Positions 9,116-61,600 of a stretch of 64,000 bases of DNA are shown in pieces. The stretch spans positions 6,964,866-7,028,865 of the forward strand of contig OZ022583.1 of assembly GCA_963669155.1 (NCBI GenBank), read 5' to 3'. This DNA comes from Arbacia lixula (taxonomy: Eukaryota; Echinodermata; Echinoidea; Arbacioida; Arbaciidae). Below the pieces are notes generated by a model that was given only the letters and a program-made list of their open reading frames with translations, had not been told where the DNA came from and did no database searches. The position numbers and the translations under genes are program-made. Each line of letters begins with the position of its first letter. Positions within the stretch are counted from its first letter, which is position 1.

Positions 9116-10235
9116 ATGACGATATGGTAATGATAACAGAGATGGCGAATGATGATGATGTTGATATGATGTGTGTGTATGTGTGTGTGTGAGTGTGAGG
9201 TGGGAGTCTTACTTGACATAGAGAATGGAGCCTAACATAGCAGAAGATGGGGTTGAGAGGGAGTGGGATGTACAAGAGAGGTTCAAGAACTCTAAAAGCG
9301 ATGGGGGAATTGTAAGAAGTGAGATCAAAGTCTTGTTAAGGTGGGGGTATATGATTGTAACACCTGTTACAGACAGAGAGAGAGAGAGAGAGAGAGGTGT
9401 AAGCGATTTGAAATAAGTAAGAATGTAAAGATGCAGACGGGGGGTGGGGGGGGGGGGGGAGCGGGGATATCAGCTTGAAGAAGGTAATATCATGTGATGC
9501 ACATCCCATCATAAACTTCCCCTTTTTCCCTTCATGTTGACCTCGATGGTTCTCTTCCTTGTCATACATCCTGTCTGTCTGTCTCTGTGCCATCCCCCTT
9601 GTCCCTGTGCGCCATAGATTAGCTTGAAAAACACCCTTGTGAGCCGGAAAACGGAACCCTTTTTTCCTGGACCAACTTTCTGGGGCTTGAGTTTGCATTG
9701 TCCTCTTCTAGGTGCCTTGGATTTGATAAGAGCAAGCAAATAAGCAGTTGAGTTGCAAAAGGCCTTTAATCCATTCTAGCTACTAATTCCAAGCAAATCA
9801 ATAGTTTCTATTTCATAACTCATTGGTGTGCATACTAATATGAATTTCATTTCATATTTCATATTTTTTAAGTCAGTTTTATGCACACAGTGGATGTCTA
9901 TTCAGTAATATGAACAAATGCGAGTTGATAGAAAAAGGGATTAGGGCCTTTTGCATGTAAGCTCTTCAAATATACTTGCCATGCATGGAGTGTGGTAGAT
10001 ATATTTTAATGGCTATAAAGGTTTGGACGCGGCTCAAATTGGCAGTGCGAGATTCCATGGTTAGTGAACAAGAATATTAAGCACGTATAATCACTCCTTT
10101 ATCATTTGCCTGATTTTTTGTTAATCCGTTTTTATTTCTGCTTGCAATTGTAAAATGGCAAATGCTTTTAAAAACTATTATAACGATGTAAATGAAAGTA
10201 AAAAGGAGACACTTAAAATGATTGAGTTTTATATT

Positions 10236-10628
10236 TCTCCCTCTTTTTCTTTTACCTCCTTCGCCTTCTCTCTTTGTCTTTCTATCTCTCTCTCTACCTC
10301 TGCCTCTCTCTGCATCTCTGCTTCTCTCGACCCCTCCCCCCTCTTTCTCTCTCTCTCCTTCCCTTTCTTTCACTCTCTCTCTTTCACTCCCTCTCTTTCA
10401 CTCCCTCTCACTCTCTCTCTCTCTCACTCTCTCTCTCTCTCTCTCTCACTCTCTCTCACTCTCTCTCACTCTCTCTCACTCTCTCTCACTCTCTCTCACT
10501 CTCTCTCTCTCACATTCTCTTTCTCTTTCACTCTCTTTTCTCTCTCACTCTTCCACTCTCTCTTTCTCTTTCACTCTCTTTCCTCTCTCTCTTTCACTCT
10601 CTCTCTCCCTCTCACTCATTCTCTCTCT
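10236..10628. repeat. (CT)n / CACTCTCTCT polypyrimidine tract
   Basis: About 390 bp of CTCTCT with a recurrent CACTCTCTCT motif. It runs directly into the 3' splice site CTGCAG of the exon at 10637, so it also forms an exceptionally long polypyrimidine tract for that acceptor. Confidence 0.9.
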
Positions 10629-10636
10629 ACCTGCAG

Positions 10637-10712
10637 TAAACGGTGTGAAAGGAGGTCAGAAGAAGGACGGGACTGCACGCAATGCACGCTACTCAGGGAT
10701 CAACTCAGCAAG
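10637..10712 (+). CDS. Penultimate coding exon of an unrecognised gene (gene A)
   Basis: A 76-nt exon between the acceptor CTGCAG at 10631-10636 and the donor GTAAAC at 10713. Read with one leading base it encodes KRCERRSEEGRDCTQCTLL then RDQLSK and ends in phase 0. That matches the phase-0 start of the next exon at 12546, which continues the same charged heptad-like character. It has a Cys-x2-Cys pair (CTQC). I do not recognise the family; it looks like the start of a C-terminal coiled coil. Upstream exons must lie before this point, but I could not identify any in the window. Confidence 0.55.
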
Positions 10713-12187
10713 GTAAACTTTAACCCTCTCATTACCATCCTCATGCCAATGTGTAGTAAGCCAATATAGGCTTCAAGGCCTGCTACTGTAACTTATAAAC
10801 CCATTTTCTTTCATAAGTGACTGCAAAGTTATATTAATCAATAGTGACAATGGGGTGAACGAAAGAGATCATCGATAAAAAGCTCAGCATGAACATACCT
10901 TTGCAAGGAAGTATTATAATTATCATTGTAGCTTTTAACTACCACATACTGAATCAAATAAAAAAGGCATTTTAGCCCCCCATGGCAAAAAGAACCCATG
11001 TAGACAATGAAAGATCCCCCTTGCCCCCACCCTTCCCTCCTGACACCACATTTAATAGGGAACATGCCCTACTTAAAGTTAATCGTGATAAAAGTGGAGA
11101 AATATGGAAATAAAAGATTTCTGAAAATTTGAAAAAATCTGATAAAGAATTGGAAAATTATCATTCTTTTAAAAATATTTTGACTTTGGTTATGAAACAG
11201 AATGAATATGGATTCCAGTAGGTTTTGAGAGTGGAACAGTTAGCCCTAAAGAAAGCAGTTTCTCTGTATGTATCTAATATTGAGAGAAGCAAATGAATTA
11301 AATTCCCCAACCCATTCGGCCGCGAAGAAGCAGAGTTTAACCCCCCCCCCCCAGCAAACAATAAGACTGTGTTCTTTTTTTGTGAGAGCTTTACAGCGAC
11401 CCTACAGTGTTATCATCACTCAATGTCCTGTCTTCATTCAGCGAGGTTTGGGTATCGCGGGATAGCATTCTCCTCCCCGACGTAATGCAATTTGTTGTGG
11501 GAAAGCAAGTATGAAATCTAATAATGCCACAACAAGACAAGACGCACACGATTGAATTGGGACACTCAAGTCAAACGTATCCTCTGAAAGTCACAGGAGA
11601 AATGTAGTACTAAGTGTTAAAAAGAACCTTTGACACATTTGAAAAAATAATAAAAACAAGAGAGCTAAACTCAAATCAAAGTGAATTTTTTAAGCATACA
11701 TCCAAAAGATGACCATATCCTGTGCTGTCACAGGAGAAATATACTACTAGGCATTCAAAAGAACATTTGACACGTTAGCAAAATTGTAATAACAAGAAAG
11801 TTTCAACTCAAATCAAAGAGAATTGTTTTGTGGGGCGGAGGGTTTCGTGACATTTCATCAGTTAATATTCTTGTAATAGTCCTTTATATACAATAAGTTG
11901 CTCATGGAAACCCTTCAGCTTGTCTGGGGTTTGTCCGACAAATAATAGATTCAGAGTGCATTCCATCCATTGAAACTGAATTATGAAATAAAGGTGCGTG
12001 CAGTAACTCATTACTATGCAATTAGGGGGAAAGTTGTGAATATATTATGAAAACGGCTTATTGTTTGATGTCCACTCACATATTGATCCTGATATGTTAC
12101 AAGTGATTCTCAAATTGAATATTCAAAGGATTATTATAAGAATATCTTAAATGGTCACGAAGGTCTGCTCCCCTGCATTTGTATGTA

Positions 12188-12409
12188 CTGTATACGGCAT
12201 ATATTATGCTGGGTTTTTATTTTCCCAAATTTCGTGAGTCGGGTGCTATTCGTGAATTTAACAACAAGCGAACATTATGAATAGGACGTGCATGAGCACA
12301 TGTACTACTAGTAATAGTACTGCATGATCGCGAATTTAACCATTCACAAAATTGTTGTGAAGTCGTGATTCGCGAAAAATTAGACGCGCAAAATATATGG
12401 CGTATACAG
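12188..12409. mobile_element. TA-flanked MITE with inverted ends, 222 bp
   Basis: The left end reads TA|CTGTATACGGCATATATT and the right end AATATATGGCGTATACAG|TA, giving 18 bp near-perfect inverted termini with TA on both sides, as for Tc1/mariner-type non-autonomous elements. The interior repeats words such as TTCGTGA and TTCGCGA. It sits in the last intron of gene A, about 135 bp before the terminal exon. Confidence 0.75.
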
Positions 12410-12545
12410 TATTCTGCCGTGAATGCATTTTTTTTTACATATCTTGCAGAATAAAATTCAATCCAATCCATTTGTAAACCCCTTTGAAAAGTGAATTTTC
12501 TGATGGAAAATAAATAACTAAATTCATTTCGTTTGTCCTCCTCAG

Positions 12546-12722
12546 GAGCGGGAAGAGAAGGGTGTCTTGCGGGACGAGGTCGATCGCTTGCGGGAGGCTC
12601 TGGTCAACTTCGCCAAGATGGCGTCCTCCCACCCCACCCTGGGCGCCAACATCGGCCAGGAGCTGACGGAACTCTTCAACCGCACCGTCACCATCAAGCA
12701 GGAGATCCAGGAGCTGGTCTAG
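12546..12722 (+). CDS. Terminal coding exon of gene A (coiled-coil C-terminus)
   Basis: The acceptor CTCAG is at 12541-12545 and the exon opens in phase 0. It encodes 58 residues beginning EREEKGVLRDEVDRLREALV and ending TVTIKQEIQELV before TAG at 12720-12722. The exon is GC-rich relative to its surroundings, has no internal stop, and shows heptad spacing of Leu/Val in its first half, so it is very probably real coding sequence. I cannot name the protein. Joined to the exon at 10637-10712 it gives a C-terminal segment of about 83 residues. Confidence is in it being an exon, not in any function. Confidence 0.7.
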   Translation, partial: EREEKGVLRDEVDRLREALVNFAKMASSHPTLGANIGQELTELFNRTVTIKQEIQELV

Positions 12723-14671
12723 TCGCTATGGCGATTAGTCCCGCCAATGTTGAATCAACTCAACCAAATGATTGCATTGCATGTATGATGTCATCGATGT
12801 TAGATTCTTTCGCGCATATTTTTGTTGATGTATGGTACTTGCCCGATAATCAAGCTTCCTAATGCCTACCTTGAGGTTTTGTTTAACTCTAAGCGTACAC
12901 GATCCAGATGGTTCATGCATTAACTCTATGGCAATGGGATACTCTAGGAGTCAATGGGTTAAGTTAATCCATTGGATGTGTGGTATATCCCAACTCAAAG
13001 TCCACTTGTGTGTGGAAAAATGATACATCTTTGCCCACGGAGCACCTTACGATATCCTGTAAGTAAACTTTTGTACTTATGTACTTATGCCCGAGATTTA
13101 ATGTCCCAAGCACTATTGTAGACAAAATATACGCACTAGACCTCATGAATAGTACACTCTGTAAGGCAAAGCAAAGTACCAGGGAACTGAATCTTAATGA
13201 TCAGCCAGTCAAGTCAGAGCAGGAAATTGGTGAGGACATTCAGACAAATCACTGTGAAATTTTAAAAAGAAATAGAGATTAGGAATTGTAAGCGTTCGCC
13301 CTATCAGTACCATCCATTGAACACAGCATATTGCTTGTGTGCCTGAGAGAGTTAACCCTAAAATCTCACGTTGCCTGTTCACTTTGTCAGCATGTGGCTA
13401 GTTTGATGCAGCCGTATGTGAGTAATTGTGCTTTGGGATAAAAACTAGTATGCACAAAACACAAACAACCAATAGAGCTTGCTTTTTTTTAAACTCTGTT
13501 AGCCTAACAGACTTGCCCATATTGGATTTCAGCGCTGGTGATTATGATTGTTCAGAAATGATTTTCTTACAACTCGTCAAGTTTTCTCAACCAATCTACA
13601 TCTATAGGCCTTTTTCTGCTCTAATATGAACACTCTGTAGTCCTTATCAGTGCCGTATATCTTCAAGGGCTTTGCTCTCCTGTAAATTATATACTGGTCT
13701 AGGATATGTCAAGGCAATGTGTCGAGATAAATCTCTGGTATGGTGCGTGGTAAGCAGCGTGGCTGTGATTATACATATGCAAATACGGTGACAGGAGATA
13801 TAAAGTTGGAAAAAAATACTGGTGCTATCTTCAACTAAACATCTCATGTATGACGACAGCGAAAAAAAAACACCCGCTCGCAATAAATGATCAGGTTGCC
13901 AACATACATTTTTATGCACACTTGCTACGCAATTTGTTTTGCATTTGACAACTCTAGCGCTTGTCTGAGGTGAGTCCAACATAGCAACTAGCATTGCGAG
14001 TCTTTGTGAACAAATTTGATTTAGTTTGCTTGAAACTAATAGGGCATTAACCTAATACCTAATTCTGTGAGGACATTTGTACAAGCCTTAAATGTGATAT
14101 CAACATTGTCTTTAAAATGCTAAGAACTGATTTCTCATTATATTGATGAAGTACTACGAGACCAGGGAATAATCATAAGTACTTCAAAGTTTTTAGAATG
14201 AGATCTTGCGCTTCTAGGTCAGTACTGTATTTTGTTACTAATCTCTTTATATCATCTTTATTTCTATCATCGCTTTTGCTAATTTGTTCAAGCTTCTCAT
14301 ACGAGTGTACTAAAAAAAGAATATAGTAAGATATAAAAGTATATAGTAGTATGTATTGTCTCATGTCTATCTCAAAAACATTCTATATAGTATACACTTC
14401 CACATTTTTAGTTCTAAATATATTAATGATTTGTTATTGTCGCTAAGTACCCTGTTTATAGAAAAGTCAGTACTAGACAGCATGCGACAAAATGATTGTA
14501 TGTATTTTTGTTTATTTCCTTTGCAAGTATAGGATTCTTTTTTCTCTGGTGTGAGAAAATGGCAGTGCAAAGACAACATGTGAGACAAATGCAGCTCAAT
14601 TAAATGAAAGATATACCAGCTATTACCAGTAGATCTCAATTTGTATTTTGTGCAAATTATGCCATTGATTT

Positions 14672-34286: not shown

Positions 34287-34604
34287 ATGGTGAAAAACAA
34301 AAGTCGCTCGTTCAATGCCAAAGCTAGGCAAATAGTTGATGATTCAAACATTCGAAAATCTCATCAAACGCCATGCGTCCTCGTGGAAGAGCCATCGGGC
34401 AGTCAGTCGAAGTCTTCCCCTGAACTCTCGGGTGCGAGACAGGGTAGCACGCTGGACAGCAATGCACTCGTGCTGCCATCGAAAAAGACGAATCAGGCGA
34501 GGAAGAAATTACGCTCTGCAGAGCAGAACCAACCAAAGCAACTCAGCAAAAAGCAACGAAAAAGACTAAGCAAGGTTCTAGAGCAGAAAGAGAAGAAAGG
34601 AAAG
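34287..34604 (+). CDS. DHX37: DHX37 exon 1
   Basis: 106 codons, [19 protein letters not shown] to [11 protein letters not shown], donor [16 protein letters not shown] and the ending LEQKEKK align with human SNALVLPGKK and ILEQKEKK. Confidence 0.93.
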
Positions 34605-43600: not shown

Positions 43601-46600
43601 GCAGTACTACGTGTTGAGTTTTTGAATAAATCATAGTTCCTGTTGATTCAATAAACAAGTCCATCCTGTAAAAAACATGATCTTCACATCAATGTATAAT
43701 CTTCATAATGCTGTGTTAATGAAACCACAAACAACAATAACAATCATTAAAAGAAAGAAGTCTAAAGCCTAAAAGATCATTTCTCTTTAATTGTCTGTTG
43801 CAGTCTGCTGAGAGATTGCTGATTTCACTGGGTGCCTTGGAACAGCCTCCAAAGCCCAAGAGGTTCAAGGATATGAAGAAAGGTAAGAATACATGTAGGG
43901 ACGTGTGTTTCTAAGGCGAATGTACCAGAAATCATACAATCAATTAATGAAATTAATAGATTAATATGGACATGACCAGTGCCCTACACTGTTGTTGCTT
44001 AAAGGTGAATGTGTAAACATTATTAAAACAATAAAAACATTTAAAAGATAAAATATGGAAATGATTAGTGCTCACACTTTGTTAGAGACAGCACATATTT
44101 ATGTAAAATACATATGAATATCAAGGATGCTAGAAAATGAATGACTTTTCCTTATACGGGGTGTGAAGTTCAATCTCTCATCCCCTCTCCCATCCCATCC
44201 CCCTTCCGCATCAAACAAAATTCTTCAGCACCAGGATAATGGAGGTTAGTTGAGCCATGGCCTTTTAATCCCTTTAATTCAATCTCTTCCCACCTCCCTC
44301 CCCCATCTCATAGAATTCTTCAGCACCAGGATCACGGACGTGGGTCGTGCTATGGCCTGCCTACCGGTGGCGCCCTGCTACGCCAAGATGATCTCGCTGG
44401 GCCAGCAGGAGGGTTGTCTGCCCTACGTCCTTGCCCTGGTCGCCGCGCTCACCGTCCGGGTAAGTGGTTGTCCACCTTGAAACTTTCCAGTTCTCTTTCA
44501 AACCCATTTGCACCCAGCTAACAGATTTATAACCTTGTGCGACTACAAAAAGAAAAGAAAAAAAAGAGACATCAATAATGGAGCATTCACTTCTGCACAA
44601 GATGATTCCATTTTGGTTGTTGAATGATATGCTTCATTTTCATAATATTTTTTAATGTGAACATGAATTGATCAATAAAGTTTTAACTATGATCATGATC
44701 ATTATTATTATTTTTTACGATGAAGACAATATTTTTCTCTCTGCAGGAGATCTTTGATGAGAGCTCGTTGCCAGGCAACAGTGACTCTGAGGTGAGTGAG
44801 TGATCCCAGGGGACAGAACATATACTCTTAAAAAATGTTTAATCGTACATTCCATTTTGTGCTTTGCCATTTTCTGTCAACTTTAGTACTGGTTGTGATC
44901 CCCTCATGTAGCATTGTTATTATGTGATGATCACTGAATTATTGTCTGCGTGCATCATGTGACTGCTTTTCACAATTAAAACATACAATTTCCATAGAGC
45001 AGCAGATGAATCTGGCACACAAAGGGTTTACTCTTTCTATACTAACTTTTTACAGTCGAGGCCCAGTGATAAAAGTAGTCCTCTATCAACATTGGCTACT
45101 TGGTAGTAAACACTTTTTGGTGTAAATTATAGTAAGCAAATAATCAGCGTTGGTGAGGGTGATGGGACGAACTATCACTTCCGAGGCGATCTGGATGTAG
45201 GTATCTTTCCGAAGCGCAGCTGAGGAAAGATGGGGTATACATTCAGATCGCCGAGGAAGTGAAAGTTCGTCTCATTGCCTGAAACCAAAAGTTGATTATT
45301 TGCTCTATATTCCACATCTGAAACCAACTATCTATACCAAAAATGACAATTTGACGTAAAAAGGTAATATTTACTTATCTCCATAACCCCGAGCCGCTGC
45401 CAAGGGGAACACGCGTTAGGACGCGCATTAGGACGCGCATTAGGACGCGCATTAGGACGCGTATTAGGACGCGCGTTAGGACGCGTTAGATGTCAAGTGA
45501 TAGTCCGAGTGTAACACACTTTTATTTCACGCGTACTCAAAATATAAATCACGCATTAGGACTGTGAGGAGTGAAGAGATCAGCGAAACCAAAAAGTACT
45601 ATCACCTAGAGTGTAACAAACTTTTATTCTCAGGGGATCTGATAGAAAAAACTACGCCTCATCACGTGATCAGCTCTTGACCAATCAAATAGCAACATTC
45701 TTAGTATGTGGAATATAATCCTGAATACAGTACCGCTCGGCCCTGAGTGTTTACACGTTTACCTGTTTCATTGTTTCATTGAATGGTCGGAGCGAAACGT
45801 GTAATTCTCTCAGTTCCCTTATTCAGCCGGCGCTCAGACTCTGTGCGCTCAAGGAGAACCGCGTTTTCTTCCTCTTACACGTTTCGAGTGTCCCCGAAGG
45901 GAAGCGGAGTTGTCGGCACTACTGCGTGTAAACGTGTAAACGTGTACACAAATCACACGCGCCGTAATGTGCGACGCGCGCGTCGAACGAGCACTCACAT
46001 CTCTTTTTTGCATGTTTGTAGTGCAAAGTCACTCAAGCGCGAGCGAGCGAGCGGAGATCTAGATAATCACCACCACACACGTAACTGCGGGTACCGTACC
46101 GTGGCGGCAGTAAACGAGTAAACGTGTATACAAATCACACGCGCCGTAAATGCGGCGATACAGCACGAAGTGGTGCATTCGTAGTGGAGGTTCAAACGAG
46201 TAAACGTGTACACAAAACACACGCACCGTAATGCAGCGGTTGATATACAGGGAAGTGAAGCCCGATGTTTCTGTTTGTAGCTCCGAAACGTTAGTACATG
46301 TACTGAGTACTCCCTTGTACATGTACGCCTACTGTCAGCACTGTCTCATGTGCTACTACATGTACTACTAGTCTGGGCCCTACTAATGTTAGATATCGTT
46401 ACATACATGCATCGGTATTAATATTGTTATGACATTTTATAACGGTCCTCACGAGGCTTGTACACTGTACAGTACCTTCTTCCCCTGTATACCGTACCCC
46501 GTAGCCTCTTAGGCGCTAACGTTAGTTAGTGTACAGTTGTACTTTCGCACCTGTTTGTCCAACGACCTCCAAACAAGCACAAACTCACCCTGTTTATTTA

Positions 46601-49600
46601 GTAACCAAAAATACTTCCATCTGAGTCTCCAAAGTCGAATATAAGTGAAATTTTGGCCAAAATTTTTACACTTTTTTTGCGTTAACAAGTGTCTGAAAAT
46701 CGTTGGAAAATCTTGATCGCTATTCGCTGGTATTGCTGCTCTGAGAGCAAGCACAGTTACAAATTGGTCTGAATAAATGTAGCAAGTAGCGATACAGCGG
46801 CTTTTTCTATGGTGTCGTTGAAAGGCTAAAAATTGTTTTTTCCTTGCCCTCGGCCAAGTTTTCCGTTAGCGGTTGTAGCTTCATGGCAGCGGTTTAACGT
46901 GTGAGCGAGTGTATGCTGGCTGCCACTTATATCTTTCTCTTTCTTTTCTTTCTTCTTTTATTTTCAGGTAGAATCTATTCCCCTTCCTTCCTAGCAATCA
47001 TTTCTTTGTGATTTTCCTACTCCTAGACTTCTCTCTTTCTCGAAGGTGTTCCTTTTTAACCGTAGATCTACTTTCTGCCTACTTTTTGTTTCAGCCATGG
47101 GTTGTTTTTCCCTCCAATCACAAGGGTTTTTTCTATCCTCTCCAATATAGTTTTCTTACATGTCATTCTAATGATTTTTCCACCCTATTTTCCCTTTATT
47201 TCTCATTCAATCTGTATTTAATTCTTTCTTACCTTCACATTCATCTTTGCTTTCATCCAGGTTTGATTCATCTTTTTTTGTTCATAAATTCTTTGCATTC
47301 CTCTTTTCTTTCAAACTTATCCATCTCTCCCTTGCTTTCCTTTATGATGCAAGTTTCTCTTCTTTCTTTCTTTCCATCATTTTTTAGTGAACTCTCTATT
47401 TCATTAACCTTTTGTTTACTTTTTTTGAGGGTTTAATTTTTTTGATACAGTGTACCTTTTATTTCCTTTCCCCCTTTTCCTAGCCCTTTCCTTATATTCT
47501 TCACCCTTGTCTTATCACCACGTTTGCACAATCCTCTTTCATTCACACCAATGAACACACACACACACACACTTTTTTGTCTTTGTCAATCTTTTATTTT
47601 TCTTTCTTCTTCATAGAAACAAACGAATTAATTCATTGCAAAATAACACAATTTTTTAATTATAGCAACATATTCTACATTTGTCAATATCAAGTACACA
47701 ATTCTTGACTTACCTGGATTCAACATTACGGTAAACTAACGTAAATCAAGAATTTTGTATAGGCCCTATAAAACAAAACACACAAACAAACACACACAAA
47801 ATACACTGTATGACCAACCCCAATACTGAAATCGCCACAATAGGTTGTATACCGCGACTCGGTAGAAAACAAGAGAAAGGTGGAAAAAGTATTTTCTTTT
47901 TAAGGACACCATAGAAGAACTGTCCGTTCATCCTACACGTACGTACAGACTAGACAGCTACAGTTGCATTCACATAAGATTGACGAACACGGTTACACGA
48001 TTCCTATAATCATGTCCGGGTTGGAGGAATAGTGTATCGCTCCAACCAACACGTAAACACGTTTCCGGGAGGGGTCGGACACAATGGGATGAAGAACAAT
48101 GGGATTAGAACATGGTCAGTGGGCCCAATCCAAATAGAAATCGTCGGATCGTGTAGAAGCTACACGACAATGTTTCGCCGTTATCAGTCGAGCCATTAAC
48201 GCTCATGCGCGCTCATGCGAGAACAATTTTCTTTGGCCCGAGTCGGGGGCGTTCGGTCGGTGGACAGGAAATGATGCGAAAACAATCCATTATCAGTCGA
48301 GACGAAACGTGTATAAACATTCTTCCGTCGTCACAAATGTTCTCTCGTTTGACTGAATTAACCTCGTTCTTGCGTTTTAACTAACTTATGTCCTCCTGTT
48401 TGATTAAATAAACCATGCTCTTTGAACAAACTTATGTTTCTATCGTTAGTTATAGTTACCCCACTATTTTCCTCAGTCACTTCCCCCATTCGATTGTCTA
48501 GACGCCGTGCTTTGGTTTCAAACCAACGTCCGTTATCTATTTGATGAAATAAACCCCTCTCTTTCGGTTGAACAAACTAATTTTCTATCGCTGATTATAC
48601 TAACCCCGTTATTTTCCTTGAACCAAGGGACTTTCCCCCATTCGACTGTCTAGACGCCGTTCTTTGGTTTTAACCAACGTCTATTTACCTGTTTGATAAA
48701 ATAAACCCCGCTCTTTCGGTTGAAAAAACTTATGTTCTATCGTTGATTATACTAATCCCGCTATTTTCCTTCAACCAAATGACTTTCCCCCATTCGACTG
48801 TCTAGACGACGTTCTTTGGTTTCAACCAACGTCTGTTATCTATTTGATAAAATAATCCCCGCTCTTTCGGTTGAAAAAACTTATGTTCTATCGTTGATTA
48901 TACTAACCCCGCTAATTTCCTTGAACCAAGAGTCCTTCCCCCATTCGACTCTCTAGACGCCGTTCTTTGGTTTTAACCAACGTTTATCTATCTGTTTGAT
49001 AAAATAAACCCCGCTCTTTCGGTAGAACAAACTTATGTTCTATCGTTGATTGTATTAATCAAACTGTTTATTTTTAACACAGTAATTTTCCCCCATTCGA
49101 TTTTCTAGACGCCGTTCTTTGGTTTGAACCGACGTGTGTTCTTCTATTTGATAAAATAAACCCCGCTATTTCGGCTTGGCCGTCTTTACGTGTAAGGGTC
49201 TTAACTACACGACTCCGAGAGGGGTCGGACACAATGGATGAGGAACAATGGGATGGTCAGTGGGCCCAATCCGAATCGGAATCGTCGGATCGTGTACATG
49301 TAGGAGCTACACGACAATGTTTCGCTGATTTCAGTCGAGCCATTAACGCTCATGCGCGCTCATGCGAGAACAATTTTCTTTGGCCCGAGTCGGGGCGTTC
49401 GGTCGGTGAACAGGAATGATGCGAAAACAATCCATTATCAGTCGAGACGAAACGTGTATAAACATTCTTCCGTCGTTACAAATGTTCTCTCGTTTGACTG
49501 AATTAACCTCGTTCTTGCGTTTTAACTAACTTATGTTCTCCTGTTTGATTAAATAAAACATGCTCTTTGAACAAACTTATGTTCTATCGTTGATTATATT

Positions 49601-52600
49601 TACTCCGCTATTTTCCTTATAACAAAGTCATTTTCCCCCATTTGATTGTCTAGACTAAAGAAACCCTGCTTTTTTGGTTGAACAAACTTATATTTTCTCC
49701 TTTTGATTTTTAGCCTCGGCCGTGCTTTCGTTTTTATTTAAATATTGTAACTTACCATCAGTGGTAACTACCATTCAAACGGCTAATGAGCCCTCATGTT
49801 TGCAGCTGTAGTTAGCATCGATGGTTAAAATGATTGGAAACCTACATGTATATGGAACAAGGCCTCAATCAAAGAATAGATCGCTACATGTATTTCGCTT
49901 TTTGTTTTGCCAATTTTATTCATGGTACATGTATGATCTTGTTGTGTTTCTTTCCGAACCTGACACTTTTCTCGTTTTTTTTTCTCTGCAGAAAGGTTAA
50001 GGTACATGTACATGTATATAGGTACATGCACAGCGGGTACTTCCAACCAGCTCAGGGCAGATCTTGGCGGCCCTCGGCCATGGATGGACAGCAGTGGCTA
50101 GATCGGCCCATTGCGCCAGGCATCCTTACAGTATATCGATGTCGCCGCCTAGCTCTCGACAAGTTGTACTTCCGCGCGCATGCTTGCATGACTCATACAT
50201 GAGTATCATATTGCACTTCATTGCTTGATGATATATAACACGTAACACGACGAAATACATACACTAACACGCTTACTGCATGCTCACAATCTCTGAATTA
50301 AATATTCTGCTGTGCCGACTTGAATACTAAATGAATGGAATGTGTGTTTGTCCGATGCTGCTATGTTTAGTCATTATTTATGGACATTGCCATATTACAT
50401 GTAGCAAATTTGTCTCTTCCATCCCCTTTCCCGATCCCTTCTCTGGTCTCATAAAAACAGATTACTTAATTTCAATTCTTTCCATATGAACATGATTCAT
50501 CGCGGCAGCTTGGTACAATGTGTAGAGCAGCCTACTCCTTAAGTTGAATTCACAATTGTATTGCGCTTCCATTTCCCACATCCCCTCTCTATCTCTATTC
50601 TTCCATCTCAAGCCCCCTTTCCCTTCCTCCAAACTGAAATCTGTTCTTTTCGATTGTTGAAATGAAAGTTCAACAACAATGCATGCGTCAAAATAAGGGA
50701 TTGATTTTTACTTTTCTTTTTCTGCTCATATATTTATCAACCCATGCACGAATAACAGGCGTGAATGTTTTTCAATGTTGGCACATTTGTAAAGTCACAC
50801 AAAGGAGCTTTTTTGCAAAGGTAAGCTGCTCAACATAATCATCGAGAACAGCGAGTACCAAACAACGACTGCACGGATTCATTTAAGGTAAGTTCATTGT
50901 ATTGTCTTTAAAAGAATGAAAACTGTTGTTTGTATTTTCAAAGAGATATAAATACGCGAATCATTACACCGTACTTGGCGGGTACGATTACTTTCTTTTC
51001 ATACTGAAGTACGGTAGTCCGACATGGAGCATTACGACGACTTGAATGGAAACAATATAGTATATTAACATGCACTGTTACCTTATACATGTACAGTATG
51101 AGTTGTATGTATACATGTACGTGCTCCTCTCACGTCATAATGAGTTAGAGGTGCGTCTTCATTAGCCTGAACAGACGAAATAGCGACAAGTAGATAATCG
51201 TCTTTGCAGTGTACAGTTTAAAGATGACAGCCTGATCGAGCATAGAATTTATTTTACCGATATTAATACATAGTACAATCCTGTCATGTTTCCCCTCATC
51301 AAGGCAAGTGCCAGGCTGCGCATTTGATCAAAGAGATTAACAAAGGAGGCCATCAGGCCACTAATCGCCACGCTGGCAGCCGCGCTATTATGAAAGGATT
51401 AATAAATCTCGGCGGGGAACACCACTTGGGGAGATTAGTAGCTTAGCACAAAGGGGGCTTTGCAAACAAAGGCCTATAGGACTAAAAGGAGATGTAGCAC
51501 ACAATTATAATCATAGTTACACTTCCTCTCTGGTGTTTTTTTTTCTTCTCTCATTCATTCGCTTTTGCGAACTAGTGAAGGTAACCAGAATGAAATCGGT
51601 TATATGTACAGGTGAAGCAAATGTCCACGTAATATCACTTATCGAGGCATATACATGTATTATGTCAAATTGTGTTCGATTTTGTCCTTTTTTCTTAATT
51701 TCGAGGTGTACCTTTGTGGAAGTAATAATGAACTCTGCCAAGTTGTTTCTCTCACACCCGACGGAACGCGCTCAATTTGCATATAATATACATTCGTGTT
51801 ACATTATCTATACCAACTTATTCAGCCTCTCTTCATTTTACCTCACACTCGTCTCAATTCTCTCATTATCTGGTAAAATTTTCCAGCAAAAAATGCAATA
51901 AAGTACAGACATGAAACAAAATTGTATATAAGTTCTCCGTTTATTAATGAACTAAACATCAGTTCATAAACAAGTAAATAATCGTTTTTAAAGAACATCA
52001 AGAACTTGGATCGCCTTTTATTATTCATGGGCCTGGATAAGAGAATCGAGAACTTGGGCCTAGTATCCAGTGGCCTGCCCATCACACTCGATGACCTTCG
52101 GGATGGCCTTTGCGAGAATCCCGATGTACTTGTTGCACTTCGCCTGCGTCATCTTCGTGCCCCAGAAGAGTTGAATCGACTCGATCAGCTGGGCCTTAGT
52201 CCGGGGCTTGCATTCCTGAAAAAAAAAGAAACAAAATGCAGAAAGAAAAACATAGCGTCAATTCGTTCTTATTTCAACTGATTCAACTATGAACAAGGTA
52301 TATCTTTGAAAAAAAAAATTTATGAAGAACCATAAGTTTTTTATCAAGAAAATATTACAAGTATTTTTACCCAAATATGTTTTGGAAATTGCAAGAGGCC
52401 AATTGTATATAAGTTCTCCGTTTATTAATGAACTAAACATCAGTTCATAAACAAGTAAATAATCGTTTTTAAAGAACATCAAGAACTTGGATCGCCTTTT
52501 ATTATTCATTTTTATGAAGAACCATAAGTTTTTTATCAAGAAAATATTACAAGTATTTTTACCCAAATGTTTTGGAAATTGCAAGAGGCCAATTGTATAT

Positions 52601-55600
52601 AAGTTCTCCGTTTATTAATGAACTAAACATCAGTTCATAAACAAGTAAATTATCGTTTTTAAAGAACATCAAGAACTTGGATCGCCTTTTATTATTCATG
52701 GGCCTGGATAAGAGAATCGAGAACTTGGGCCTAGTATCCAGTGGCCTGCCCATCACACTCGATGACCTTCGGGATGGCCTTTGCGAGAATCCCGATGTAC
52801 TTGTTGCACTTCGCCTGCGTCATCTTCGTGCCCCAGAAGAGTTGAATCGACTCGATCAGCTGGGCCTTAGTCCGGGGCTTGCATTCCTGAAAAAAAAAAG
52901 AAACAAAATGCAGAAAGAAAAACATAGCGTCAATTCGTCCTTATTTCAACTGATTCAACTATGAACAAGGTATATCTTTGAAAAAATTTTTTTATGAAGA
53001 ACCATAAGTTTTTTATCAAGAAAATATTACAAGTATTTTTACCCAAATATGTTTTGGAAATTGCAAGAGGCCAATTGGAATATTACCATGTTACATGCAA
53101 TTGCATGGAATTATGCATAATAATGAACTCACCTTTCTAAGAAAATGCTTCATCTCGTGCCACACGAGCTCGATAGGGTTCAGGTCGGGGGACTCTGGAG
53201 GAGTAGGCCACCAATTGATTCCGTGCTGAACCATGAACTCTTTCGTCCGTCGGCTTGTATGCTGCAATGGGAAGGAAATATAAAAAAAAACATTCGTAAT
53301 TGCATGGCACTAGGTAATTTTGAGCAACATTATTTACACTGACATTTTAATACTGTTTCGTGAATATTGTATATCAAGTAGGAGTCATGAATATGAACAT
53401 GCATTTACCTTTGGATCGTTATCCTGCATGAAGCGATGTCCCTCTGGATACTTGGCCGCGATGAAGGGGATCAGCGCCTCCTGCAGGATGGTCTGGTAGA
53501 AGTCCTGGTCCATGATGCCGTCGAAGATCTTGATCTCCGTGGCGCCCCGCTTGGAGATACCAGCCCAGACATGAACCTTGGTGGGGTGCTTTGGGCGGGG
53601 CTTTAGAGTCCTTGCTCGGGCCTGTCCTGTGACGGGGTCGACGTGGCGGAAGCAGAGCTTAGAATGTTGTTCTAGCTGTATGCTTGACTCGTCAGTGAAG
53701 ATGACGTCGTCGAACTGCTCCCACGTCGTTAGACAGGCCATGGCATACTCTAGCCGTTTCCTCCGGTTCACGTGTCGGATGAGTTGACAATACTGAACGC
53801 CGGTCGCTATCCATCCAAGCTTCCTCTTCGCCCTCCGAAGCGTAGATAGCGAAAACGTCCGGCCGCTGCTTGCTTCAAACATCTTCTTTAGGTCTTGAGC
53901 TGTAGTCTCGTCGTTGGCGAGCATCTGCCCGTGGATGAATTGCAGATCTTCATCCGTCAGCAACGATGGCTTGTGACGAGGGGCGTCGGAGAGGGATTCT
54001 GTCCGGAGAAAACGTTGAATAACGCCCTTGATCCCGTTGATGGAGTGGACGTTGCCCCGCTCCGACAGTGCTGCCTGTATCTGCTTAGCTGAGTACCCGT
54101 CTTTGTGCAGCTGCACAATACGAGGACGCACGTGGTCTAGAATTCGTGGCATGGTAGAAAGTGTGGTTCGCTGTCGTCAGATGATAGTACATGTACTACC
54201 TACACTACGAATACGGTCCGTTTTTATACAAATATCCTGGTTATTCCTCATAACCGTCAGAACACGCTAGAGGTAATTAGTAACAAACAGCGGGGCGCGA
54301 TTGGTCAGCACCTCGGACAATAGAACTCGAGTCCACAAAAGCGGGGCTTATGATTCGTCAGCATCAAGTGTACAGTCGGACAAAGAAACTTTTTCATACA
54401 AATAGTGTGACCTGTGATTGGTCAGCGGCATACTTTTTTGGTCAGTCTGCCAATAAGACTTTCGGTCAACTCTAACTTGCGGGTTTTATAGAATAAGGGG
54501 GGAGCCTCTTGATGAGGTGGCGAATCGCGAGTTTAATGATCGACATAAAAACGTAAAAATGACGTTACAATACTGTTAGGTAATACACCGTTTTAATGGC
54601 ACAGATCTGATTATTAGAGGCGTTTGGATTTTCATGTTGACGAAATTAAAAGACGTGACATATATATCCTACATATTTTGATTCCACCCATATTACCTTC
54701 TATTGATTTTGTGCATAACGTATTTACCCTTATTAATAATGTCCTGCTTTTCCGCTGCCTCATACACTAAAAGACCCGTGCTCGTAGTAGCACTACTTCT
54801 CTCTGCTTTGGGCGTAAGTCTTATGGCATTGTGGACTGGAAATCCCATGCATTGCAATATAATTGGTGCAGGGTGCATATAAACCCGACTAAAGTTATGA
54901 AATCAATATCAAACAAGTATTCTAAGAAACGTCATAAACATGGCGCATTCACAAAGTTTCCAACATTATCTATGAAAGAGAAGGATGCATTGGATCTGAA
55001 GGAGTGTGCTGCACACGTGTCTCGTCATTTCAGACGAATGTGACATTTTATCGTCATTTTCATTATTATCATAAATTCGCGCTGAAAGCAACATCTACAA
55101 ACCGCTCATTACTGCGGTTCTGTCCTTATCATTTTGGTCATTTTAATAACACGTGGAAATATTATGTGGCAAGGTACAGTGTATGTATGCTGAGTTTCCA
55201 AAAAGAATGGTGATTTGGGTCTTATAACTGGTGCTTGAAAACAATATCCGGCTCATGATAATCGCGCTTCGGCAGCTTGGCGGCGTGGTTGCAAGCCATT
55301 GTTTAGACAGTTAGAACAATCAAAAACTTTGCTCCCAGCTAAGGGGGGAAGGGGGTGGGGGGCGTGATTGATAGACAGCATTGCTGCAATGTCGGACAAT
55401 TGTCTTCGGTCAACAATATTTGGCTCGTATTCCAATTACTGATACGATAGCCTGCATGTCGTGATTCGAATCATTGACAGGTATACTGGGTAACAAAGCT
55501 ATAATTCAATAAAGCACATTAATGTGGGAAATGTCCTTATCTCGAAGCACGAAGAAATTTCCATTAACGAAATCACAGTACATTTTGACAATGCTATGGA

Positions 55601-58600
55601 TATAAACACATTTCATTCTCGTGACAAATTCTTTAAGAGTACAAAATGTCTTCCTGATGTGACCCGTTTTGACGACGATGTGCACAGTTTGGTATCACGC
55701 AAAACTGGCCCAACTTTATACATGAAATCTATATCATCTGTCGAAATGACACCCTCACATTGCACATTACACTGGCATTAAAGTGTTACAAAGTACATGT
55801 CAATTAATGCGGATACCCCTTTGCTTGATCTCGTTTCCCCTCAACGCGGCACTACTTCTCTCTGCTTTGGGTGTAAGTCTTATGGCATTGTGGACTGGAA
55901 ATCCCATGCATTGCAATATAATTGGTGCAGGGTGCATATAAACCCGACTAAAGTTATGAAATCAATATCAAACAAGTATTCTAAGAAACGTCATAAACAT
56001 GGCGCATTCACAAAGTTTCCAACATTATCTATGAAAGAGAAGGATGCATTGGATCTGAAGGAGTGTGCTGCACACGTGTCTCGTCATTTCAGACGAATGT
56101 GACATTTTATCGTCATTTTCATTATTATCATAAATTCGCGCTGAAAGCAACATCTACAAACCGCTCATTACTGCGGTTCTGTCCTTATCATTTTGGTCAT
56201 TTTAATAACACGTGGAAATATTATGTGGCAAGGTACAGTGTATGTATGCTGAGTTTCCAAAAAGAATGGTGATTTGGGTCTTATAACTGGTGCTTGAAAA
56301 CAATATCCGGCTCATGATAATCGCGCTTCGGCAGCTTGGCGGCGTGGTTGCAAGCCATTGTTTAGACAGTTAGCGCGATTAAAGTTACAATAAATTCTCA
56401 ATACAAAAGGGCGTGGCCAGCCATTGGTCAGCGGCATGTCTAAAAGTAAAACAATCAAAAACTTTGCTCCCAGCTAAGGGGGGAAGGGGGGGGGGGGCGT
56501 GATTGATAGACAGCATTGCTGCAATGTCGGACAATTGTCTTCGGTCAACAATATTTGGCTCGTATTCCAATTACTGATACGATAGCCTGCACTAATCAAC
56601 AAAAGACAATACATTCGGACTTTATAAACCTGACAGAAAGAGAAAGGAAGGAGGTACCTGCCAGAAAAAGCTTTGCAGAGAGGGGAGTGTGATTGAAAGA
56701 GAAGATTATGGGAAAACAGTGAAAGTCTTATACTCTCAAGAGTGTAAGGATTTTTTTAAAAAAAATAGGGACTAAAATGTAGAAAAAAGATGAAAGGAGC
56801 GAAGATGTGAAAGGGGGAAGATATTAAAGTGATAGGGAGGGTGAGAAAAAAAATAAAGGGAGACACTGGGATGAGAAAAGGGGCCGAGAGAGAGAGAGAG
56901 AGGATTAATTGGGAAGGGAGAGAGAGGAATTAAGATATACATGTAGTGAGACTGGAATGGAGCAGTCAGGAAGTCCATTGCAGTCTCAGCGTACACGTAG
57001 CATAGCGGACGAAAGCATCGCATCATGTTTTCCGAGAAACCGCCGGGGAAGCGTCTTAGCAGAACTGCGCACCTCGCTCAAAATAACAGAATGTAATTTA
57101 TAATTACATTTTGGGGAGTTTCATGTCAGAAAACATTATGAAATTAAGGATGAACCATTGTGGTATTGTGTCCCCCGTCCCCCCCCCCCCCCCCCCCCGG
57201 GATTTCCGCCCATGCCGGATAGCGTGTTGTTAACGAGACAGATCGGCTTTTCTTAACCATTACGGCGACTTGAAAAGAACCAAAGACCTTTTAACGCATT
57301 AACTATATATATTCTGTCTCATGTATACTATACTTTGTGCATGTAAGTGTGTGTGAAGATACCATACCGAAAGATTGATGTAGTATGCGTTTTTCAATCC
57401 AGCCATAAATTCGGCATTCAACCGCAGAAATCGCGCTTGAAGTGAAATGCATAACAATTGGGGGAAAATATAATTAGCTCTTATTCTACTCAGATATGTC
57501 TTCTACATAATGGCAAATTTTTGTTAAGAAATATTTGGTAGGATTATGAACATTTTATGACAGTTTTGAAGCATGTTTTCGTTAATACAGCCCCGCCTCT
57601 TACTGGCCCCCTTTGTGCTAAGCTACTAATCTCCCCAAGTGGTGTTCCCCCACCGAGATTTATTAATCCTTTCATAATAGCGCCGCTGCCAGGGTGGCGA
57701 TTAGTGACTCTGATGGCCTCCTTTTTTAATCTCTTTGATCAAATGCGCAGCCTGGCACTTGCCTTGATGAGGGGAAACAGGACAGGATTTCAGTTGATAT
57801 CAGCAAAATAAATTCTATGCTCGATCAGGCTATCACCTTTAAACTGTACATTACCTTACTGTAAAGACGATTATCTACTTGTCGCTATTTCGTCTGATCG
57901 GGCTAATGAAGACACTCCTCTTACTCATTATGACGTGAGAGGAGCACGTACATGTATACATACAACTCATACTGTACATGTATAAGGTAACAGTGCATGT
58001 TAATATATTATGTTGTCTCCATTCAAGACGTCGCAATGCTCTATACATAAAGACCGTACTTCGGTATGAAACGAAAGTAATCGTACCCGGCATGTACGGT
58101 GTAATGATTCGTGTATTTATCTCTGTTTTAAAATGCAAATGAGCAGTTTTCATTCTTTTAAAGACAATACCATGTACGTACCTGAAATGAATCAGTGCAG
58201 TCGTTGTTTGGCTTGTTTGGTACTCTGGACATAATTGGGTCCCACGCTGTTCTCGATGATTACGTTGAGTGGCTTACCTTGCACAAAAGCTCCTTTGTGT
58301 GACTTTACAAATGTGCCAACATTGAAAAAACATTCATGCCTGTTATATTCATGCATGGGTTGATAAATATATGAGCAGAAAAAGAAAAGTAAAAAATAAA
58401 TCCCTTATTTTGACGCATGCATGTCCAGCTATGTTATTCGAAGCTTAATTGTGATGAAGTGCAAATAAAAGATTGCTGTTGAACCTTTATTTCAACAATC
58501 GACAAAATCAGATTTCAGTTTTTTTGAGGAAGGGAAATGGGACTTGAGATGGAAGGATAGAGATAGAGAGGGGATGTCGGAAATGGAAGCGCAATACAAT

Positions 58601-61600
58601 TGTGAATTCAACTAAAGGAGTAGGCTGCTGCACACATTGTACCAAGCTGCCGCGATGAATCATGTTCATATGGAAGGAATTGAAATTAAGTAAACTGTTT
58701 TTATGAGACCAGAGCAGGGATCGGGAAAGGGGATGGAAGAGACAAGTTTGCTACATGTAATATGGCAATGTCCATAAATAATGACCAAACATAGCAGTAT
58801 CAGACACATTCCATTCATTCAGTTTTCAAGTCGGCACAGCAGAATATTTAATTCAGAGATTGTGAGCATGCTGTAAGCGTGTTATTGTATATATTTCGTT
58901 GTGTTACGTGTTATATATCATCAAACAATGAAGTGCAATATGATACTGATGTATGAGTCATGCAAGCATGCACGCGGAAGTACAACTTGTCGAGAGCTAG
59001 GCGGCGACATCGATATACATGTAAGGATGCCTGGCGCATTGGCCCGATCTAGCCACTGCGGTCCATCCAAGGCAGAGGGCCGCCAAGATCTGCCCTGAAC
59101 TGCTGTACATGTACCTTTAGACATGTACCTTAACCTTTCTGCAGAGAAAAAAAAAACGAGAAAAGTGTTAGGTTCGGAAAGAAACAAGATTATACATGTA
59201 CCATGAATACAATTGCCCCCAAAAAGGCGAAATAGCGAGCTATTCCGTGATCGAGGCCTTGTTCCATATACATGTACATGTAGGTTTCCAATAATTTTGA
59301 ACATCGATGCTAACTACAGCTGCAAACATGATGGCTCATTAGCTGTTGTAATGGTATACCACTGATGGTAAGTTACAATATTGAAAAAAGTTAAGTTTGA
59401 TTTAAAAAAAAAAACCGAAGCACGGCCCTAACAATCAACAGGAGAACATTAGTTGGTTAATGCGACAGAAAGGGGTCTAGACAATCAAATGTGAAAATGA
59501 CTTTGTTAAAGGAAAAAAACATGGTTTATATAACGAGATATCAACGAGATAGCATAAAGGTGTTCAACCGAAAGCCTTGTGATTTATTATTTTATTTAAA
59601 TAGGAGTTTAACGCATGTTTGTTAAAACCAAGGAACGGCGTCTATAGTCGTGTTAAAGGAAAATAGCGGGGTTAATATTATCAACGATAGAACATAAGTT
59701 TGCTCAACAGAAAGAGCGGGGTTTATTTTATCAAATAGGAGAACACATGTTGGTTAATGCCAAAGAACGGCGTCTAGACAATCGAATGGGGGAAAATGAC
59801 TTTGTTAACGGAAATAAGCGGGCTCTATATAGTCAACGATATCAAAAAAGTTTTTTCAACCGAAATAGCGGGGTTTATTTTATCAAATGGGAGAACATAC
59901 ATATATATTGGTTAGAACCAAAGAACGGCGTTTAGACAATCTAATGGGGCTAAATAACTTTGTATTATAAATACCTAAATAACTAAGTAACTTTATATTA
60001 CAAGAAACAAATCTACGTAGACTTCAACTTCCTTCTCATTTTCTTTTCTTCCTCTTTCTCTCTCCCTCCTTCTAATAGCCTTACCTTTTTCTTCCACTTT
60101 TCCTTCAACCTCATTATATTCCCTTCAAAACTATTCAAATTAAATTATCAAATCATGATAAATTAAATACTTGCCACAATTTTAAAGACAGGATGTCTAA
60201 ATCCTGGAATGAACAATTTGTATCAATATTTTAAATAGTGATAATCATGGTAGTGTCAATGAAAACGGAAAAAATACGAAAAAGAAAGTAGGGGCTACAC
60301 GCATTGCACGAGTTGTGTTCAATATTGTTAGTACCGGTGAGCGGCTAATTAGCGACTATCAGAATCGATTAAATCGTCGACATCGTTCTCTGCCATTTCA
60401 ATGCACGACAGTATTTATGAATGAGTATAGAAGCTACACTATAGTGATAGTATTTTAGTATTTTTACTACACATGTAATGTAGTACGTGTATGTTCACGA
60501 CCGACGTACTTCTCATTAAAACTCCGATTTCACATTTTCTTCCCTTTTGGGCTTTCTAATTCCATGAAAACTCTCTGATATGGTTCAATTTAGCATCTTC
60601 AACAGCTGCACAGACAAACGGCGAAGCGAACGGTAAGTGTGCATTACTACATGAAGTCAGCTGTGCTTTGAATGAAAACGATAGTGCAATTTCGATCAGC
60701 GCATTTTCTTGCCCATGGTGGCAGCCGGGGCCAATGCGAACGGAACATACAAGTACATGGACCGTATTTGCATTACGAACTTGTCCTGAACAAGTTGGTG
60801 TGGTACTCGGCACAGCGTGGAGCGAGCGTGTTTTACGGTGAACCGTTCACTTCGTGTTCCATGATATACGCGGTGCACACAGTCGTGCATGCTGCTGCAT
60901 GCTGCATGACAAATGTGTGCGTTGTGTGTGTTGACGGCACTTGCACGGAAGTCGTGACAATCACGGCCCCAACCAAGCAAGGGAGGTGGGCATGGGGGAA
61001 CTATGTGCGCGTGCACGCTGCATGCGTGAGTGCTCCCGTCGCTCGCGCGCGCACAGACATTGGCATACTGTCCATTTACACGTTTACACGTTTCAATACT
61101 TCGGAGACTTCGATTGTTTCCGAAGAGTGGCATCTCCGATTTACACGTTTCATTGGGTCATGGCCGGGTAACCGCGCTTGCGTGTAGATTCTATTCTACA
61201 CGTTTCAGAAGCCGGATATGCGTGAATACAACCCAAACAGGTAAACGTGTAAACACTCGGGGCTGAGCGGTACTGTAAGTAAATTACACAGCCATCAGGG
61301 GCCATATTCATGAAAGCTTACTAGCCTAGTGGGTTAGTAACTAATTAGGCTTAGTAAGGTTTCATGAATATGGCTCCTGATTCCTAATGATTTTTGGCAT
61401 GTTACATCACCCTCTCCAATAATTGTCACCTTGGTACATTAAACCTGATTGCCTCTTTTGCCACATAAAGAGGGGAAAACAACCAGTGAACTTGAGTGAT
61501 ATTTGCATTGGAATTATAACCAAAATAATCCCGAGGATGGCTTTTAGGAGGGTATTCAAGAACATTTGCAGTCCCATGATCCTTTGCATTGGCTCTGTGC

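Follow-up and report, generated by a model that had tools for sequence, protein, structure and literature searches.

Transposons of the Tc1/mariner superfamily are usually compact, about 1-2 kb, and in Tc1 chemistry the enzyme cuts at the element ends and inserts at TA; mariner proper is of the DD34D type. The TU elements are large, with long inverted termini and longer target duplications. In the sections at hand of the papers cited here, simple terminal inverted repeats (TIRs) of 26-30 bp are given as typical for Tc1/mariner, and Mcmar1, a mariner element of Meloidogyne chitwoodi, is described with inverted terminal repeats (ITRs) of 355 bp made up of direct repeats and palindromes (PMC3169594). 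The same sections list foldback elements with known enzymes, namely Galileo in the P superfamily and Tm1, FARE, and others in the Mutator superfamily, give target duplications of 9 bp for Tm1 and 8-10 bp for Tetris (PMC4079207, PMC3169594), and name the TU elements of Strongylocentrotus purpuratus as a foldback case (PMC4079207). Here we analyzed a stretch of 64,000 nucleotides, the window, from the sea urchin Arbacia lixula (assembly GCA_963669155.1, contig OZ022583.1, positions 6,964,866 to 7,028,865), in which a TA-flanked insertion at 45728-61275 encloses large inverted arms and a transposase gene, called transposase A below. With a probability of roughly 0.75, this insertion derives by internal deletion from a composite in which two giant Tc1-type cut-and-paste transposons, an outer and an inner element, are nested. 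The termini, the TA flanks, two inner insertion sites, the intact frames of A and of a second transposase, B, and the deletion junctions are the observed part of this explanation.

The locus shares TA flanks, CAGT-type ends, a DD34E triad, and a DDE_3 domain with Tc1-like DD34E elements (IS630-Tc1-mariner superfamily, e.g., Sleeping Beauty), and differs from them in its estimated element sizes of 16.6 and 19.8 kb, its introns, a BEN-domain gene, and inner foldback arms. Judged by TA target, triad, and catalytic domain, the locus is classed as Tc1-type. As far as the sources cited above describe it, Mcmar1 is likewise a Tc1/mariner-type element with enlarged, repeat-filled ITRs, but the inverted termini here are kilobases long and the enzyme is a DD34E Tc1-type one. 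Galileo, Tm1, and FARE, within the same limit, share with the inner element long inverted termini with tandem arrays around a transposase gene, whereas TA flanks and a Tc1-type enzyme are found here. The locus, with its TA flanks and DDE_3, is not a Mutator-type foldback with an 8-10-bp target duplication and a Mutator transposase, and the Pfam scan of A returned DDE_3 and helix-turn-helix (HTH) families and no THAP, the domain of Galileo/P superfamily transposases.

Outer and inner termini

The outer ends of the window insertion, CAGTACCGCTC, are inverted repeats that match at 39 of 41 bases (45728-45768 and 61235-61275), start with CAGTACC, and are bordered by TA at 45726-45727 and 61276-61277. 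A search of the 607-Mb assembly with the left 301 bp found seven loci at 100% identity, all of them accompanied by the right 41-bp terminus at 95% identity; here and below, the genome-wide copy counts for outer ends, both transposases, and the BEN frame are lower bounds. TA stands on both sides of all seven copies, against a chance background given by the TA frequency of 0.071 in the window, and the remaining flank sequence is different between copies. Both the near-perfect TA-flanked ends described by an earlier sequence-only reading and its proposed check, a genome listing of copies with TA borders, were thus borne out. The copies are a family that has transposed, and the near-identical ends at seven sites suggest recent movement; the empty site expected for the window insertion, with a single TA, would read CCTGAATAAGTAAATT. 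The copies measure 8,344 bp (C15b), 15,255 bp (C3), 15,459 bp (C15a), 15,548 bp (C8, the window copy), 15,632 bp (C5), 16,146 bp (C1), and 35,629 bp (C43, the long copy, G000:C43:85210-120838).

A second kind of terminus was found inside these outer ends. In C8 and C3, the arms start at element position 2234 with CAGTTGCATTCACATAAG directly after TA (site 2), in C1, C15a, and C15b the inner terminus lies at element position 748 and is also preceded by TA (site 1), and in C43 a mirror-image inner terminus stops at 16,614 and is followed by TA and outer sequence. Site 1 is uninterrupted in C8, C3, C5, and the left part of C43, site 2 is uninterrupted in C43, and TA is present at every inner junction seen. 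Because arms, arrays, and transposase A are bounded by separate TA-flanked termini (CAGTTGCATTC...) and occupy two different sites, each uninterrupted elsewhere, they are one inner element. Its inverted termini extend over kilobases, from the ends through 152-bp arrays to arms of about 1.8 kb; inverted termini of such length, with tandem arrays inside them, are foldback anatomy. The outer element, with inverted ends of only 41 bp, is not of this anatomy. The features of the window copy are as follows.

45726-45727: left TA of the outer insertion
45728-45768, plus strand: left 41-bp TIR of the outer element
45728-46209: subterminal zone with seven ACACGTTT/AAACGTGT sites (element 26-482), candidate binding repeats by inferred function
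46473-46474: site 1, TA, uninterrupted in the window; inner element there in C1, C15a, C15b, and C43
46475-47958: outer-element sequence separating inner insertion sites 1 and 2
47959-47960: site 2, TA, with the inner element there in the window and C3; uninterrupted in C43
47961-59963: inner foldback-type element, retained part; left terminus CAGTTGCATTC at 47961, right terminus deleted
48340-49702: left array of the inner element, 152-bp repeats and fragments
49734-51458, plus strand: left inner arm, 85% identical over its full length to the reverse complement of 57606-59389
52731-52886, minus strand: transposase A exon 3; an extra exon copy about 671 bp off, at 52.06-52.22 kb
53133-53261, minus strand: transposase A exon 2, containing E279
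53409-54152, minus strand: transposase A exon 1, containing D154 and D244
57606-59389, minus strand: right inner arm
59437-59963: right array remnant, truncated by the deletion
59964-59992: junction left by the deletion of what is element 12163-34348 in C43, containing about 29 bp of filler
59993-61275: right end of the outer element, with five ACACGTTT/AAACGTGT sites in the last 200 bp
61235-61275, minus strand: right 41-bp TIR of the outer element
61276-61277: right TA of the outer insertion

The kilobase-scale inverted arms of the sequence-only reading are present, at 48.5-51.46 kb and 57.6-60.0 kb, where, for the 25 pairs listed out of 46, the inverted blocks show 73-100% complementarity. 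Its claim that everything between the outer ends is one single element does not hold, given the separate inner termini at two TA sites in different outer copies. Of its giant foldback with a Tc1-type enzyme, the foldback that carries A stands, and what falls away is the view that arms and A are parts of the outer-ended element. The alternative it offered, a Tc1 element in an unrelated foldback, does not quite fit either, the foldback itself being the A-bearing Tc1-type element and the host a second Tc1-type one.

The 1.5-kb piece between the inner sites was considered as a separate TA-flanked insertion and rejected, as it has no inverted ends; it is outer-element sequence, because the inner termini adjoin it. 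Nor is the locus a composite transposon of two flanking elements, one element lying inside the other. Beside site 1, the sequence TACAGTA (window 46468-46474) resembles a Tc1-type excision footprint, which we take to have this form for elements with a CAG end; it is present in both occupied and uninterrupted copies, and site 1 may therefore have been used before. The inner core contains two large, near-identical direct duplications, at window 51920-53077 and 54790-56591, with spacings of 671 bp (with the second transposase exon 3) and 1059 bp, respectively. A palindrome-like stretch just beyond the right outer end, at 61298-61379 (GGCCATATTCATGAAA...TTTCATGAATATGGCTCC), is perhaps a small inverted-repeat element.

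Transposases A and B and their ends

Transposase A is encoded by three minus-strand exons (54152-53409, 53261-53133, and 52886-52731) that give an intact protein of 342 amino acids with the triad D154, D244, and E279, the latter pair separated by 34 residues (DD34E), in agreement with the intact spliced DD34E transposase of the sequence-only reading. It matches DDE_3 in the Pfam scan at 54.3 bits (cut-off 28.6) and, in the PDB, the Sleeping Beauty catalytic domain (chain 5cr4_A, E 2.9e-18), and HTH_Tnp_Tc3_2, HTH_SB, and HTH_32 match both A and B, all under their cut-offs. Transposase A is present in six of the seven outer copies, with an identical protein in all six. Among the 118 candidates scored of 1073, its near relatives are these six giant copies, B in two, four copies or fragments on contig C17 at 86-96%, of which three lack the first 44-53 residues, and, more distant, five broken ones on C12; the remaining ones listed are about 27% identical. 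The C17 fragments begin and end without short inverted ends and without the subterminal motif, and within that same set of candidates a transposase alone with its own short inverted ends, which the sequence-only reading had named as evidence against itself, was not found. The possibility that A is a small Tc1 element inserted into the core was rejected, as its flanking inverted repeats belong to the arms or are short and weak (25 of 51 pairs listed) and as the C17 fragments have the borders just described. The broken C12 relatives, 45-56% identical and with stops, lie in two clusters at 2.631-2.636 and 5.940-5.948 Mb (L034-L038).

Transposase B starts at C43 element position 30,572, runs toward the right end, and is an intact protein of 343 amino acids with a DD34E triad at 155/245/280. 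A and B are 67% identical and have the same intron positions; the nonsynonymous and synonymous distances between them (dN 0.24, dS 1.88) are a sign of constraint. Among the 118 candidates scored of 945, B is found in two of the seven outer copies, C43 and C15b. The latter has the same outer ends around B and lacks A, so that a different core within the same termini, a finding that the sequence-only reading had said would speak against it, does exist.

C43 also has a BEN-domain frame (30.3 bits, cut-off 23.2; element about 18.3-19.4 kb), with a full match only in C43 and weaker relatives on C15, C17, and C19 (117 candidates scored of 262). The domain scan of B covered its first exon only; the ten single frames of L011 gave no domain above cut-off, and the scans of 20 proteins or frames gave no match to polymerase, capsid, or tyrosine-recombinase domains. 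BEN gene exons outside this frame and other small genes were possibly missed. On C17, BEN relatives (39-45%) lie at 4.3836-4.3883 Mb (L055-L057), about 11 kb from and on the same strand as an array of A copies and fragments (86-96%) at 4.3993-4.4206 Mb (L028-L031, L050-L053); these may be what remains of a related, older giant element, and matching ends and the subterminal motif were not found in the stretches examined. At C15:16,897,304-16,901,123, about a dozen BEN-like frames, mostly 47-72% matches, stand within 4 kb.

The two kinds of ends have CAGT in common, plus a TTACACG core 25-40 bp from the end, and they differ in that outer sites read ACACGTTT and inner sites mostly TACACGA. Seven ACACGTTT-type sites lie near the left outer end and five near the right one, and 12 of the 18 such sites of C43 are within the terminal 720 bp. 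From their arrangement, these repeated subterminal sites are candidate transposase-binding repeats, in what we take to be a layout recalling the inverted repeat/direct repeat (IR/DR) type. We tentatively assign B to the outer ends, because the B gene lies in outer sequence and C15b has B alone, and A to the inner ones; the TTACACG core is also present in the inner ends, and cross-action of the enzymes is therefore possible. The window copy lacks B and would need a helper copy, unless A can serve the outer ends.

A nested arrangement in which A moves both inner and outer ends, the copies without B being still mobile and B redundant or specialized, would account for the shared CAGT and TTACACG core, the 67% identity of the enzymes, and the five of seven copies that have A only. 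We consider it unlikely, since C15b has B only, the outer and inner sites differ as described, and the six right breakpoints of the shorter copies are each private to a single copy, so that A-only forms have not been seen to have multiplied.

Deletion derivatives of a probable composite

Six copies, including that of the window, are deletion derivatives of a longer form. On the C43 scale, their right breakpoints lie at 34,489 (C1), 34,349 (C8), 34,299 (C3), 34,058 (C15a), 32,987 (C5), and 29,601 (C15b), and their left breakpoints, at about 11.8 to 14.4 kb, fall within the right-hand inner array or on its border, that of C5 being ambiguous among repeats. A filler of 121 bp at the C1 junction is identical to C43 28,877-28,997, and C43 and C5 have another left-side junction in common, at element position 1117. 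Because the six right junctions all differ, it was probably the complete composite, about 36 kb long, that was mobile prior to each of the deletions. The deletions would have occurred at or after insertion. Of the seven copies, only C1 has a 1.63-kb tandem pair, 99% identical (L021, element 10130-13385).

In the mechanism that we favor, an outer element of an estimated 19.8 kb, which in its long form carries transposase B and the BEN-domain gene, received at its TA sites, probably at least twice, an inner foldback-type element of an estimated 16.6 kb carrying transposase A. The composite of about 36 kb would then have been mobile as a single unit, cut at its outer ends and integrated at TA; the enzyme was most likely transposase B, acting on the repeated ACACGTTT sites near the ends. 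Internal sequence would later have been lost by end-joining of the inner array to the right part. The intact sizes, 16,560 bp for the inner and 19,760 bp for the outer element, are estimates by arithmetic only. That a Tc1-type DD34E enzyme repeatedly moved this nested pair of about 36 kb, with two intact, diverged transposases and one foldback, and that each enzyme may stand in for the other at the outer ends, is a proposal we put forward tentatively.

The breakpoints also bear on the idea of just one giant foldback element, mobilized by the A that it carries, with B and the BEN gene as a later gain of one lineage. This would fit the presence of A in six and of B in two of the seven copies, and the roughly symmetrical position of the window arms relative to the outer ends. 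Against it stand the TA-flanked inner termini at two separate positions, the nested right breakpoints and the C1 filler, which point to short copies derived from a parent bearing the B side, and C15b, with B and no A within the same outer ends; we hold it to be improbable. Still less credible is misassembly or repeat collapse as the origin of the 35.6-kb copy and of the differences between cores. In its favor, contig C43 is unplaced and has a length of exactly 125,000 bp, and the arrays are difficult to assemble. Against it, 4.8 kb of the B side recurs at 99.8% in C15b on a 22.7-Mb contig, C5 and C15a contain shorter right-side parts and C1 a filler piece, and each left inner junction is found in two or three copies.

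Nesting is supported chiefly by the junctions. Of 13 informative sites, from three inner blocks compared in six copies (C15b is without these blocks), 12 split C8 and C3 from C43, C15a, C5, and C1, and one groups C43, C15a, and C5; the outer ends of the seven copies contain none. The split agrees, in the sequences compared, with an inner element that entered twice, as copies differing slightly from each other; these numbers are small.

Several points weigh against the nested explanation. Few sites underlie the separation of C8 and C3 in the inner part, and a comparison of C8 with C43 shows slight differences in the outer part as well, 3 in 741+1139+1492 bp, against 15 in about 5,956 bp of inner sequence. 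No free inner copy was seen, though no search aimed at the inner termini was made, and none of the seven outer copies lacks inner sequence. For site 2, no copy shows the right junction, which leaves the left one alone, and at site 1 the left and right junctions come from different copies. The long form is known from C43 only, five of the seven copies have A without B, and one has B without A. In C43, furthermore, 376 bp of outer sequence stand to the left and again to the right of the inner element, so that an extra recombination step is needed; our reading is that a site-1 copy recombined with a site-2 copy and that a deletion came afterward.

Significance for the Tc1/mariner superfamily

Set beside the TU elements by description only, the locus shares with them large size, long inverted termini, and an echinoderm host, and differs in that their target duplications, as described rather than from sequence, are longer than TA. 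With Polinton/Maverick, Teratorn, and Starships, it shares a length of tens of kilobases and extra genes. In the portion at hand of a review of giant transposons, the words mariner, Tc1, and DD34E have 0 occurrences (PMC6431247), and among the titles and abstract openings of the matches listed, with subscription papers mostly uncovered, there was no foldback or >10-kb Tc1/mariner element.

A family about ten times larger than usual, with introns, a BEN-domain gene, and foldback arms, would mean that the Tc1/mariner superfamily too can build giant mobile units, and foldback anatomy would gain a third enzyme superfamily in addition to Mutator and P. With two intact enzymes and two kinds of ends, the pairing of enzyme and end can be tested. 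The series of copies is natural material for studying the length of segment that a Tc1-type enzyme can move and the internal loss of DNA in large transposons.

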